Made by a program: the position numbers and the translations under genes. The notes under the pieces are model-generated. The model made no database searches, had not been told where the DNA came from, and saw nothing but the letters and a program-made list of their open reading frames with translations. Shown here piece by piece: positions 4,077 to 11,972 of a stretch of 64,000 nt of DNA. The DNA is from Sedimentibacter saalensis (GTDB lineage: Bacteria; Bacillota; Clostridia; Tissierellales; Sedimentibacteraceae): positions 62,001 through 126,000 of the forward strand of contig NZ_VLKH01000009.1 of the NCBI RefSeq assembly GCF_007830175.1, read 5' to 3'. The first letter of the stretch is position 1. Each line of letters starts with the position of its first letter.

Positions 4077-4493
4077 CTATAGTCCTGATGTATATTTCTT
4101 TTTTATTTTAAGACGTTCCATTGCTCTTGCTAAATTTGCTTTTGACATATAATATTCATATGTGCTCTGATCCTGGCGCATTTGTTCTTCTGCACGTTCT
4201 TTTGCTTCCAGCGCTCTTTGTTCATCAATTTCCTCCGGAAGTTCCACAGTATCCACAATCATAACTACTTTGTTATTAGAAATTTGAATATGGCCGGCAC
4301 CTGTAACTGCTATAATCCATTTGTCTTCAGCAGTTTGAATGCGTAATTCACCAACACTGACAGCTATAACAGCATCCTCATGATGAGCCAAAATACCCAT
4401 GGATCCATCTGTTGACGGCAATATTAACTGCTTTGATTGACCTTCGTAAAATATTTTATTAATGGCAATTATTTTCAACTCAAAGGAGCTCAT
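4077..4493 (-). CDS. atpC: F1Fo-ATP synthase epsilon subunit
   Basis: This 138-residue subunit has the epsilon beta-sandwich at its N-terminus (FELKIIAINKIFYEG, DGSMGILAHHEDAVIAV). A C-terminal helical hairpin begins near ELPEEIDEQRALEAKERAEE. In F1 it sits on gamma in the rotor and can restrain ATP hydrolysis. It is the last gene of the atp operon, 16 bases after atpD, with a terminator directly after it. Length and order are normal. Confidence 0.95.
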   Translation of the reverse strand: MSSFELKIIAINKIFYEGQSKQLILPSTDGSMGILAHHEDAVIAVSVGELRIQTAEDKWIIAVTGAGHIQISNNKVVMIVDTVELPEEIDEQRALEAKERAEEQMRQDQSTYEYYMSKANLARAMERLKIKKKYTSGL

Positions 4494-4509: not shown

Positions 4510-6782
<2,273 letters not shown>

Positions 6783-6785
6783 ATG

Positions 6786-8555
6786 CTACCACCTGCTTTT
6801 ATAATCGGATGATGCTTTTAATATTCTTTTCTCAAGGTCTTCACTCAGCACTTTTGTAGTTTCCAGCTCCTGAATGATATCGAGATGATACTGTTCGAAA
6901 AATTCCAACAATCCGTTCTTATATTCTTTAAAGCGTTTAGTATCAATGCCTGTCATACACTTCTTTGTTGCAGCACAAAGCAAAATAACCTGTTTTGCCA
7001 TGCTTAACGGTTCACATAACGGCTGTTTTAAAAGTTCCATCAATCCTTTTCCATAATTCAGCTGTGCAAATGTTGCTTCATCCAAGTCAGAACTGAACTG
7101 AGTGAAAACTTCCATTTCTCTGTACTGGGCAAGGTCGATACGAATGCTTCCTGAAGACTTTTTCATCGCTTTCGTCTGTGCTGCACCTCCTACACGAGAC
7201 ACAGAAAGTCCAACATTAACAGCAGGACGTTGTCCCGCAAAGAACAGGTCACTCTCCAAATAAATCTGACCGTCAGTAATTGATATAACATTTGTAGGAA
7301 TATATGCAGAAACATCATTTGCTTGTGTTTCAACAATTGGAAGCGCAGTTATGGAACCGCCGCCTAACTCGGGTACAAGTTTGCTGGACCTTTCCAGAAG
7401 TCTGGAATGCAAATAAAAAACATCTCCCGGATATGCCTCACGGCCTGGTGAACGTTCAAGTAAAAGAGAAAGAGATCTGTATGCTACCGCATGTTTAGTC
7501 AAATCATCATAGACTATCAATACATCCTTTCCCTTATACATAAAATATTCTGCCATTGAGGTACCTGCATATGGAGCAATATATTGCAAGGAAGCTGGAT
7601 CACTTGCAACTGATGATACAATGATTGTATAATCCATGGCGCCATGCTTTCTCAAGGTATTTTCTACCTTTGCAACTGTTGATGCCTTCTGTCCTATAGC
7701 TACATATATGCATATAACATTTTGTCCTTTTTGGTTTATAATAGTGTCAGTAGCAATGGTTGTCTTACCTGTCTGCCTGTCACCGATGATGAGTTCCCTC
7801 TGGCCGCGCCCTATGGGGAACATGGAATCAATTGCAAGAATTCCTGTTTGCAAAGGAGTATTGACTGATTTTCTGTCTACAATACTCGGCGCCTTGCATT
7901 CTATGGGCCGAAAATCTTCTGCTAGAATTTCTCCCCTTCCGTCTATGGGAGTTCCTAAAGCATCAACTACTCTACCTAAAAAATTTTCTCCTACAAAGAC
8001 ACCTGCTATTTTGCCTGTCCTGATTACACGTGAGCCTTCTTTTAAATCATTTTCACTTCCGAATAAAATGCATCCTATTTCATCAGACCGTATATCCTGA
8101 ACCATTCCTTTAACGCCTGATTCAAAAATTACTATTTCGCCAAACATTGCATGATCTATACCGTCTACTGCAACTATACCATCTCCGATACTTTTTACAA
8201 ATCCAATTTCCTTTTCTGTTTTTTCAAACTCCAAATTTTCAATTTTTGCTTTAAGCAAGGAAATTATCTCTTCAGAACTGGAGAAGTTTTTGTTGCTATC
8301 AAAAACTTCCTGCTTCACCTGGTTAAGAAGTCCACGCATGCTACAATCGTATTCCTGATTGCCGACACGTATTATAAATCCACCTAAGAGCTGAGGTTCT
8401 TCTACTAAATCAATTTTCATATCAGTAATATTTACTTCATATTTTTTTGACAAGAAATTTATGATTTTATTATACTGCCCTTCATCAGGCGCTGTTACAT
8501 ATGAAATAATGATAGAGAGCTTTTTCTTATTTTCATCTGCTGTCTTTTGTACCAT
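6786..8555 (-). CDS. atpA: F1Fo-ATP synthase alpha subunit with an N-terminal delta (OSCP) C-terminal domain: delta/alpha fusion
   Basis: The predicted protein has 589 residues, against about 500 for a normal alpha. Residues 1 to about 85 are not alpha sequence. They read like the C-terminal half of subunit delta: a strand pair starting KLSIIISYVTAP, a helix, then VEEPQLLGGFIIRVGNQ and DCSMRGLLNQVKQ, the family's terminal GG-x-R-x-G / D-x-S-x-x-G-x-L signature. A normal alpha then begins with its own N-terminal helix (EEIISLLKAKIENLE) and core (VKSIGDGIVAVDGID, P-loop GDRQTGKT, SVSRVGGAAQ). AGGTG lies 8 bases before ATG 8555, and the start overlaps atpF by 23 bases. No atpH lies between atpF and atpA, and the delta N-terminal helix bundle is found nowhere in the operon. 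Whether an internal start also makes plain alpha cannot be told from sequence. Confidence 0.93.
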   Translation of the reverse strand: MVQKTADENKKKLSIIISYVTAPDEGQYNKIINFLSKKYEVNITDMKIDLVEEPQLLGGFIIRVGNQEYDCSMRGLLNQVKQEVFDSNKNFSSSEEIISLLKAKIENLEFEKTEKEIGFVKSIGDGIVAVDGIDHAMFGEIVIFESGVKGMVQDIRSDEIGCILFGSENDLKEGSRVIRTGKIAGVFVGENFLGRVVDALGTPIDGRGEILAEDFRPIECKAPSIVDRKSVNTPLQTGILAIDSMFPIGRGQRELIIGDRQTGKTTIATDTIINQKGQNVICIYVAIGQKASTVAKVENTLRKHGAMDYTIIVSSVASDPASLQYIAPYAGTSMAEYFMYKGKDVLIVYDDLTKHAVAYRSLSLLLERSPGREAYPGDVFYLHSRLLERSSKLVPELGGGSITALPIVETQANDVSAYIPTNVISITDGQIYLESDLFFAGQRPAVNVGLSVSRVGGAAQTKAMKKSSGSIRIDLAQYREMEVFTQFSSDLDEATFAQLNYGKGLMELLKQPLCEPLSMAKQVILLCAATKKCMTGIDTKRFKEYKNGLLEFFEQYHLDIIQELETTKVLSEDLEKRILKASSDYKSRW

Positions 8556-9036
8556 CTAATTCACCTGCTTCGGTTAAGAACCTTTCATAGATTATCTTAT
8601 TGCTCTGTGGTGTAACATTTGCACCAATAATTTTAGTCGCAGTGTCCATTGCAAGATTAGCAATTTCTGTCTTCATCTTAAGAAGTTCTTTGCTATGTTG
8701 AGATTCAATATTTTTATGTGCATTGGCAATTATTTTTCCAGCCTCTTCATTTGCGCTTCTTATTATGTTGTCGTATTCTATTTTTGCTTGTGCTTTAGTT
8801 TCATCAATTATTTGTTTTGATAAATCGTTTGTAGTTTTTAAAGCATCTTCATATTCAATTTTCAATTTTAATGCATTGTCCTTAGTCAGATTAGCTTCTG
8901 CATACTGTTGTTCCAGCAAGCTCTTTCTTTTATCCAATATGTTGTTTATTGGATTAAACAAGAACTTTTTCATTAAGAAATAGAGAACAAGCAGATTTAT
9001 GATTGTGAACAAGAGATTGATATTTATTTTAAGCAA
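8533..9036 (-). CDS. atpF: F1Fo-ATP synthase b subunit (peripheral stalk)
   Basis: This 167-residue protein has one N-terminal membrane helix (residues about 5-25, INLLFTIINLLVLYFLM) and then a long charged coiled coil that links Fo to F1. The end (MKTEIANLAMDTATKIIGAN) is the usual delta-contacting region. Length is normal, so the missing delta N-terminal domain is not hidden here. It lies 30 bases after atpE and overlaps the fusion gene by 23 bases. Confidence 0.95.
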   Translation of the reverse strand: MLKININLLFTIINLLVLYFLMKKFLFNPINNILDKRKSLLEQQYAEANLTKDNALKLKIEYEDALKTTNDLSKQIIDETKAQAKIEYDNIIRSANEEAGKIIANAHKNIESQHSKELLKMKTEIANLAMDTATKIIGANVTPQSNKIIYERFLTEAGELDGTKDSR

Positions 9037-9066: not shown

Positions 9067-9318
<252 letters not shown>

Positions 9319-10005
9319 TTATTCAATTGCTTCTTTGATAAAAAGTGATGTTAAAAAAACAAAGACGTATGCTTGTATAAGCCCATCAAAGATATCAAAA
9401 TACAGACTAAAGGGAACCGGTATACCCACTGGTATTATGATTTTGATTAATTCCATAACTACAAAGGCTCCAAGCACATTCCCAAATAGTCGCATACATA
9501 GCGATAATGGACGAATAAATATTTCTAAAATATTTATTGGGGTAACAACAGCAACAGGTTCTGCAAAGCTTTTAAAGAATTTTTTCGGCCCCTTTTTTTG
9601 AAACTTAGCCGCTTCTGTCAAAACTATGCTCATTATGGCCAGTCCCAAAGTTACATTAAGATCCTTTGTGGGGGGCTTAAATCCAAAAAGAGCACTTGTA
9701 TTGGCTATTCCAAGAAAAATCAGAACCGTGGCCAAGTAAGGTACAAATTTCTTCCCATGTTCTCCAATTATGCCTTCAATCATATCTTGAAGCCCTACAA
9801 CAGCTGTTTCTAATATAAGCTGTTTCTTGCTGATGTTTTCTACCTTTAAATCCCTTGTAAGCAACATAGAAGCAATCAATAAAATTGCCATTATAACCCA
9901 TGTTACTACAACTGATTCAAGTACTTCTATTCCTCCAAGCACCGGGATAATCAGCACAGTCTCACAAGTAAGTTCATGCATTAATTCTTCTGCTAAATGA
10001 TTCAT
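9319..10005 (-). CDS. atpB: F1Fo-ATP synthase a subunit (ion channel)
   Basis: This 228-residue polytopic protein carries the essential Arg in RPLSLCMRLFGN, and near its end FDIFDGLIQAYVFVFLTSLFI. It forms the half-channels against the c-ring. It is the first gene of the operon (ATG 10005, with AGGAGGTGA directly before it). atpI, often found in front, is absent. The operon order is a-c-b-(delta/alpha)-gamma-beta-epsilon. Confidence 0.95.
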   Translation of the reverse strand: MNHLAEELMHELTCETVLIIPVLGGIEVLESVVVTWVIMAILLIASMLLTRDLKVENISKKQLILETAVVGLQDMIEGIIGEHGKKFVPYLATVLIFLGIANTSALFGFKPPTKDLNVTLGLAIMSIVLTEAAKFQKKGPKKFFKSFAEPVAVVTPINILEIFIRPLSLCMRLFGNVLGAFVVMELIKIIIPVGIPVPFSLYFDIFDGLIQAYVFVFLTSLFIKEAIE

Positions 10006-10526: not shown

Positions 10527-11972
10527 TTAATAAGCTCTTGCAGCATATATCATGTGCTTTGCTTCCTTGCCGCATATGTGGCACTTGTCGCCTAAATTTT
10601 CCTGCTCAAAAGGAATGCATCTGATTGTTGCTCCTGTTTCTTCTTTCAGTTTGTCTTCACATTCTCTGCAGCCGCACCACATCATTTTTGCAAAACCAGG
10701 CTTGTTTGGAAGATCCTTTTTATACTGCTCGTAATCTTTCACAATGTATGTGTGAGCTTCTCTGTGTGCTTTAGCTTTTTCAAACATGTCTTTTTGCATT
10801 GTTTCAAGCATTGAAGACAGTGTTTCTTCTATGTTGTCCAGTGATATAGTTTCTTTTTCAAGCTTATCTCTTCTTACAGCCACAGCCTGATTGTTTTCAA
10901 TGTCTCTTGGTCCTATTTCAATACGGATTGGATATCCCTTCATTTCATATTGGTTGAATTTCCATCCTGGTGAATTTTCTGTGTCATCATCAAGCTCAAC
11001 TCTGATTCCTTTTGCTTTTAACTTGTCGAAAAGTTCATTTGATTTTTCCAGCACTCCTTCTTTTTTCTGAGCTATTGGAATAATAACAACCTGGACTGGT
11101 GCCATCTTTGGAGGAAGAACCAGACCTCTGTTGTCGGAGTGAACCATTATGAGTCCTCCTATAAGTCTTGTTGAAATACCCCATGATGTGTGGTATGGGA
11201 ATTCTTCCTTGCCTGTTCTTCCCTGGAATTTGATTTCAAAAGCCTTTGTAAAATGCTGGCCTAAGTTGTGTGATGTTCCTGCCTGAAGAGCCTGACCGTC
11301 ATGCATCAATGCTTCCATTGTGTATGTTGCATGAGCTCCTGCAAATTTTTCCTTTTCGCTTTTTTGTCCTACAACAACAGGCATTGCCATTAAATCTTCA
11401 GCAACCTGTCTATATATGTTAAGCATCTTGAGTGTTTCTTCTTGAGCTTCTTCTTCTGTTTCATGAAGTGTGTGACCTTCCTGCCATAAGAACTCTGAAG
11501 TTCTGAGGAATGGTCTTGTAGTTTTTTCCCATCTTACAACGCTGCACCACTGATTGTAAAGGTATGGCAGGTCTCTGTATGAACTGAGCCATTTCTTGTA
11601 CATGTGGCATATTATTGTTTCTGAAGTAGGTCTTATTACAAGTCTTTCTGCAAGTTCCTGACTTCCTCCGTGAGTAACCCATGCAACTTCAGGAGCGAAA
11701 CCTTCCACGTGCTCTTTTTCCTTTGTCAACAGACTTTCAGGAATCAAAAGAGGAAAATACATGTTCTTGTGCCCTGTAGCTTTGAACTTTTCATCTGCAT
11801 ATTCCTGAATTTTTTCCCACAAAGCATATCCGTAAGGTCTTATAACCATGAATCCCTTAACCGGTGAATAATCTACCAATTCATTTTTCAATATTACGTC
11901 TGTGTACCACCTGCTGAAGTCTTCTTCCATTGGCGTTATTTCTTTTACAAAATTCTTTTCTTGTTTAGCCAT
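10527..11972 (-). CDS. proS: Prolyl-tRNA synthetase, archaeal/eukaryote-like (ProS type 3)
   Basis: This class II synthetase charges tRNA-Pro. The 481-residue form starting [14 protein letters not shown] is chosen because AAAGGAG lies 5-6 bases before ATG 11972; an upstream in-frame ATG at 11987 lacks such a site. It has [14 protein letters not shown] (motif 1 region), [35 protein letters not shown] (motif 2) and [16 protein letters not shown] (motif 3). The C-terminus has a Cys-rich zinc-type end (CGCREC ... CHICG) and finishes with AARAY, the type 3 hallmark. The bacterial editing insertion is absent. It is preceded by a T-box leader. Confidence 0.96.

Follow-up and report, generated by a model that had tools for sequence, protein, structure and literature searches.

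We analysed a 64,000-nucleotide stretch of Sedimentibacter saalensis DNA (hereafter, the window), which contained an F-type ATP synthase operon of seven genes on the minus strand. In order, the operon encoded subunits a (228 residues), c (74), and b (167), a fusion of the C-terminal domain (CTD) of delta with alpha (589), gamma (295), beta (462), and epsilon (138). All seven genes were intact: atpB (9319..10005; PF00119), atpE (9067..9291; PF00137), atpF (8533..9036; PF00430, 76.2 bits; TIGR01144, 80.2 bits), which started with TTG and overlapped the next gene, the fusion gene itself, atpG (5895..6782; PF00231 and TIGR01146), atpD (4510..5898; TIGR01039), and atpC (4077..4493; PF02823 and PF00401). 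There was no atpH in the seven-gene operon. The 167-residue AtpF consisted of b only; with the b-delta fusion model NF009961 (cut-off, 328), which we take to be of mycobacterial origin, it scored 38.4 bits. Subunit c had neither a glutamine in helix 1 nor a serine after the ion-binding glutamate, both of which we assume to be marks of sodium rings; on these weak indications, the coupling ion may be a proton rather than sodium.

The fusion gene (window:6786-8555, minus strand) was a single open reading frame whose ATG start overlapped the 3' end of atpF. The b-binding CTD of delta was present in the 589-residue protein, with residues 3–83 (8307..8549) matching positions 93–171 of the 172-position Pfam OSCP profile (PF00213) at 35.2 bits (cut-off, 22.3; E = 1.7e-8), and positions 1–92 of the profile, representing the N-terminal helical bundle of delta, were left without coverage in this protein. 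Residues 1–9 (MVQKTADEN; 8529..8555) resembled the start of full delta-alpha fusions and are likely to be a remnant of the beginning of the delta N-terminal domain. The OSCP part was followed by the Pfam domains ATP-synt_ab_N, ATP-synt_ab, and ATP-synt_ab_C, and a complete alpha subunit extended from residue 94 (6786..8276), with residues 94–586 aligned to positions 4–498 of the 503 positions of TIGR00962 (atpA) at 746.9 bits (cut-off, 484.45). The score for the N-type or alternate F1F0 ATPase alpha (TIGR03324) was 610.4 bits, below the curated cut-off of 750.5. In an AF2 model of the protein, residues 11–87 formed a strand-helix-strand-strand-strand-helix arrangement with a pLDDT of about 85 over most of its length, in agreement with the OSCP match, and the N-terminal helix of alpha was placed at residues 94–106, within the segment of linker and helix at residues 91–109 (8229..8285). 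The mean pLDDT of the model was 65.2, and much of the nucleotide-binding domain was poorly modelled.

The assembly that contains the window measured 3.83 Mb, with 99.22% completeness and 6.49% contamination. A whole-genome OSCP search gave no second match, and no complete delta was thus found elsewhere in the genome; a 'stop inside' flag from this search sat immediately 5' of the fusion ATG. The genome (G000) contained one alpha above the F-type cut-off. A frame error or a chance match was ruled out: the frame recurred in a second genome of the genus (G003; locus L030, on the same contig as L067/UBA6113), with an identical length of 589 residues and an identical gene order, and in the metagenomic proteins P0001–P0004, which had the length and architecture of the window protein. 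These results confirmed that the delta-CTD-alpha fusion is a real gene. They bear out the original prediction, which had described an operon without atpH and a complete alpha preceded by the delta CTD with the delta N-terminal domain missing, and which had named the OSCP similarity of the extension, a complete atpH elsewhere, and a frame break between the two parts as the points to be checked. Between the window and G003, dN/dS was 0.245 for residues 1–88, 0.135 for residues 14–83, and 0.065 for alpha. The values for the delta part indicated that it is maintained by purifying selection.

Elsewhere in the window, an ETF alpha protein with a ferredoxin domain was encoded near an FAD-linked oxidase (window:19180-22761(-); Pfam), an arrangement that we take to be that of electron-bifurcating dehydrogenases, and a Prismane/CO dehydrogenase family protein was found at window:42183-43820(-) (Pfam).

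Translation starts within the fusion gene

F-type enzymes contain three alpha subunits per F1, and each alpha made from the fusion gene would carry a delta docking domain, unless it were cut or started inside. The original prediction had offered two outcomes, namely three delta-like domains per F1 or an internal start that also yields plain alpha. If an internal start or proteolysis supplied plain alpha, there could be one fused copy per F1 and one stalk. The window gene had an in-frame ATG at residue 73 (SD energy, -4.3) and an in-frame GTG at residue 80 (-3.1) that could serve this purpose, both inside the delta domain. When starts near alpha were defined as ATG or GTG with an SD energy of -4 kcal/mol or lower within -15 to +6 codons of the alpha start, 91 of 102 rows with split genes (which may hold duplicates) had such a start, but neither the window nor G003 had one. 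Other lineages gave some support to plain alpha, with SD-backed starts near alpha in 6 of 17 distinct CTD-only genes and 2 of 8 full fusions (23 and 9 rows, respectively, when duplicates are included), the strongest being L166 and L167. Within the window gene, an SD-like GAAGAG preceded TTG100, but a synonymous change in G003 altered this motif; over residues 85–115, synonymous divergence between the two genes was high (dS of 0.67 on 17 synonymous sites). An internal alpha start is thus not supported by the sequences of the window lineage, and a mixture of fused and plain alpha appears improbable. Between the two outcomes originally offered, the comparison favours three delta-like domains per F1.

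In L166 and L167 (from G100 and G399), a strong SD sequence and an ATG lay right at the alpha start, and these genes may therefore yield plain alpha in addition to the fused form.

Relatives and spread of the fused forms

A search with the N-terminal 95 residues of the window protein retrieved eight proteins, five of them CTD-only fusions (588–589 residues) and three complete delta-alpha fusions (669–671 residues). A scan of 84,980 species, each represented by one genome, gave 60 loci, which were divided by frame and by the length of the extension ahead of alpha into seven full fusions (L068 from Caproiciproducens galactitolivorans, L069, L071–L073, L084, and L086), seven CTD-only fusions (L067, L070, L088–L091, and L094), and 46 loci with a separate delta frame, which included the fetched loci of Mediterraneibacter, Roseburia, and Coprococcus. 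The full, CTD-only, and double classes used throughout were assigned by extension length; our custom delta profile gave no match in the fused L084, L088, L090, L091, L094, L128, L134, and L142, and the Pfam OSCP score of the fusion in G319 fell below the cut-off. The full fusions, such as L068, indicate that fusion alone does not entail loss of the N-terminal bundle.

Two genomes of the window's genus, G020 and G017, possessed a second operon beside a conventional one, and in this operon alpha was preceded by two tandem delta CTDs (L031:3342-5519 on the minus strand in G020; L032:6629-8794 on the plus strand in G017). The protein P0011 had the same form. In the G017 operon, each of alpha, gamma, and beta was interrupted by an in-frame stop. 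P0009, a metagenomic protein like the G017 copy over the part compared, had no stop in alpha. Each repeat contained the N-terminal helix of alpha, so the duplication probably came after the fusion. In the AF2 model of P0011, a set of helices and strands occurred twice, at low confidence (mean pLDDT, 58.9; pTM, 0.33). A search with a double-domain protein found 721 related proteins at an E value of 1e-3 or better; among the best 120 of these, 116, including that of Acetivibrio saccincola (601 residues), had an extension of CTD-only length. We recognised no description of natural full delta-alpha fusions or of tandem docking domains in the open-licence PMC literature.

Several other delta-like proteins were noted in the course of the searches. 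P0010 was a double-domain fusion on a 23-Mb contig and is perhaps a bacterial contamination of a eukaryotic assembly. In G143, a separate delta of 299 residues (L228:5665-6561(+)) comprised the N-terminal domain and two CTDs and lay next to a plain alpha; it might hold two stalks. Short stand-alone proteins resembling the delta CTD (109–171 residues) were encoded in addition to a full delta in G124 (L230:7072-8099 and 11513-11848), G205, G239, and G294. The stretches read from G124 and G239 contained no further gene that we recognised as belonging to an ATP synthase, and the genes in G124 adjoined AAA- and VWA-like genes, recognised by eye. Short frames corresponding to the N-terminal half of OSCP only were found in one genus (L229:6093-6584 in G252; also G327, G351, G442, and G463), and the G252 stretch, the only one of this group inspected, contained no other recognised ATP synthase gene.

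In an even sample of the phylum, 334 of 398 genomes had an OSCP match. CTD-only fusions were present in at least 16 of the 398, belonging to ten families (G000, G100, G120, G163, G180, G212, G240, G266, G291, G314, G319, G367, G375, G387, G399, and G421), with the frame in G291 cut by the contig end, and a full fusion was identified in one (G494). The count of carriers is a lower bound from the genomes with unbroken profile matches and 26 chosen genomes that were followed up. Five of the 17 carriers (G240, G319, G375, G421, and G494) also had a conventional synthase, as judged from the presence of two a subunits and of a full-length delta in a frame of its own. Subunit a was searched for in 12 of the 17; in seven of these 12, for which delta had been searched as well, the fused synthase was the only F-type enzyme found. 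Within the window's genus, an alpha above the F-type cut-off was found in 12 of 25 genomes, two with the window form only, two with conventional and double-domain operons, and eight with a separate delta. The enzyme was thus patchy in the genus, and many of the assemblies were incomplete.

The window's genome also encoded two gene pairs that resembled the A and B subunits of V-type ATPases by length and pairing, which is not a family call. If these represent V-type enzymes, the F-type enzyme could be dispensable, decaying or limited to hydrolysis, with the deletion in delta a harmless drift, and the 13 genomes of the genus with no alpha above the F-type cut-off would agree with this. However, the unbroken state of the operon, the low dN/dS of both parts of the fusion, the large number of related fusions, and the seven carriers in which no other F-type enzyme was found all argue against decay, which we regard as highly improbable.

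Order of events in the alpha trees

In a careful alpha tree, seven CTD-only and four full rows formed an 11-row clade with support of 100/99, and the window was nested among full fusions. Constraining the window lineage, P0005, and L070 to a single clade was rejected (p-AU = 2.5e-6), so the tree requires at least two transitions between full and CTD-only fusions; grouping the window lineage with P0005 was not rejected (p = 0.22). If these changes were all losses, this part of the tree would include two or more losses of the N-terminal domain; regain is formally possible. The MVQKTADE at the start of the window protein resembled the MIQKAIDY at the start of the full fusion P0006, and L070 retained a longer likeness to the first helix of delta. 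The CTD-only forms may have arisen by in-frame internal deletions, of about 82 codons in the window (671 minus 589), that kept the start overlapping atpF.

A wider tree of 108 rows, built by a quick method and rooted at the midpoint, placed the forms in the order split, full, CTD-only, and double from the outermost inward. Two further CTD-only groups (f49; f29, f48, f67, f98, f128, and f138) lay elsewhere among the split forms. Parsimony gave seven changes, four of which were forced by well-supported branches. This tree omits twenty metagenomic CTD-only rows and scores the G017 copy (L032) as double despite its in-frame stops. When the careful tree was rooted on the other fused branch, the split forms were one clade inside the group, unlike in the quick tree. 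As the split forms nest inside the group there, re-splitting of a fusion is possible. The case for a split-first order within the group draws on the quick tree and on the fact that genes outside the group are generally split.

Number of stalks and comparison with known enzymes

Ueno et al. (2025) removed residues 2–104 of delta from the Bacillus PS3 enzyme and fused the rest to alpha (PMC12229609). Cryo-EM of the resulting deltaDeltaN-alpha FoF1 revealed up to three stalks and a subunits; relative to gamma, a was raised 2.2-fold and b 1.8-fold, corresponding to about two stalks on average (PMC12229609). H+/ATP was 5.8 versus 3.0, and the equilibrium pmf was approximately halved, but three-stalk particles were rare, proton pumping was reduced, and the stalks came off easily (PMC12229609). 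The authors argued that the N-terminal domain of delta, sitting on the pseudo-threefold axis of F1, restricts the stalks to one (PMC12229609).

The window protein closely resembled this construct. In a Foldseek search of its full-length model against solved structures, ranks 1–3 were the three delta-alpha chains of the engineered enzyme (PDB 9jc1), and the best match of a profile of the N-terminal region was 9jc1 chain I (E = 4.7e-16), with an alignment that crossed from the C-terminal helix of delta over the linker and into alpha without a gap. In both proteins, 54 residues separated the conserved aspartate of delta from the GDGI of alpha, and the spacing was 50–57 residues in 152 of the 167 fused rows measured (duplicates included). 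The linker of the window protein is compatible in length with the solved triple-stalk structure. The best 50 entries from VIA-align, in which most rows test residues 89–589 only, did not include 9jc1. Judged from its sequence, with the CTD and alpha in one frame and no separate delta, the window protein fits the deltaDeltaN-alpha fused FoF1 architecture.

With a docking domain on each alpha and an empty threefold axis, F1 would have room for more than one b2-a unit, and extra units would multiply the ions translocated per turn and raise the number of ions per ATP. The N-terminal bundle may have been lost since three tethered bundles could not all sit on the threefold axis. We put at roughly 60% the probability that the natural enzyme has a docking site of its own on each alpha, can bind more than one stalk, and has a raised ion/ATP ratio. 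This reading is favoured because the N-terminal domain, to which the limit of one stalk was ascribed (PMC12229609), is absent here. By analogy, ATP synthesis by the natural enzyme would probably be possible at a smaller ion gradient than is common. Counting against several stalks, the genes for a, b, and c each occur once in the operon, in the usual order, and extra a and b would therefore have to come from translation.

The lone a and b genes of the operon would also suit a single-stalk enzyme. The delta domain would then be on all three alpha subunits with one b2-a unit bound, either because synthesis of a and b is not raised above the ordinary level or because a subunits crowd the c-ring, and the fusion would only secure the stator. 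Full delta-alpha fusions, which would have to tolerate three copies of delta, are compatible with such spare sites, as is the easy detachment of the engineered stalks (PMC12229609). In that enzyme, however, vacant sites were filled, with approximately two a and b2 per gamma (PMC12229609), and the repeated change to the CTD-only form and the duplicated docking domain would be hard to explain if extra sites were useless. We consider a single stalk with spare sites rather unlikely and prefer the multi-stalk reading.

A broader proposal is that the one-stator rule has been broken several times in nature, through delta-alpha fusion, deletion of the N-terminal domain, and, in one branch, duplication of the docking domain, giving at least three docking sites per F1, several stalks, and a multiplied ion/ATP ratio. 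Repeated origin of the change is suggested by the trees, but these disagree on the split forms, and the proposal as a whole is consequently put forward tentatively, at a little under even odds. The accepted rule is one stalk and one a subunit per enzyme, with an ion/ATP ratio determined by the c-ring. If the proposal were true, genomes that encode a conventional synthase beside a fused one would have two gears, for strong and weak ion gradients. Carrier cells may live on small ion gradients; RnfC is encoded in the window's genome. The fusion gene, its intermediates, and the two-synthase genomes provide concrete natural enzymes and controls for the prediction made from the engineered enzyme (PMC12229609).

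The original prediction had held that a covalent link replaces the missing bundle. The engineered equivalent does so (PMC12229609), and the overall interpretation is partly supported. What had not been foreseen is that an F1 with three docking domains can accommodate additional stalks and that natural cases were already in print. The authors of the engineered enzyme noted the same natural architecture in Acidaminococcus fermentans and similar features in UniProt G4Q3K6 and A0A1I2C5T3, and they described a multi-stalk structure in A. fermentans as 'highly likely' and awaiting verification (PMC12229609). This kind of protein is thus not new, as these authors had already noted natural cases. New here are the split and full-fusion relatives, the repeated appearance of the CTD-only form, the duplicated domain, the breadth of occurrence, and the two-synthase genomes.

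Among known systems, the b-delta fusion of NF009961 is like the window protein in joining a delta domain to another stator subunit, but delta is on b there, whereas b is separate in the window operon. The full fusions of Caproiciproducens galactitolivorans YR-4 (L068, a 677-residue frame) and P0006–P0008 were among the closest alpha relatives of the window. P0006–P0008 had the same 54-residue spacing from delta to GDGI, and the start codons of L068 and L069 overlapped the end of atpF as in the window; unlike the window protein, L068 and P0006–P0008 kept the delta N-terminal domain. According to their published description (PMC12229609), the fusions of A. fermentans, G4Q3K6, and A0A1I2C5T3 share the architecture of the window protein. 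The engineered PS3 enzyme likewise has the delta CTD (residues 105–178) ahead of alpha, with the N-terminal domain gone and no separate delta. Its stalk number is a measured one, whereas several stalks are predicted for the window enzyme. The PS3 enzyme is an artificial construct in which a short linker was inserted and the C-terminal domain of epsilon deleted, whereas the window enzyme has a natural linker and keeps both epsilon domains.
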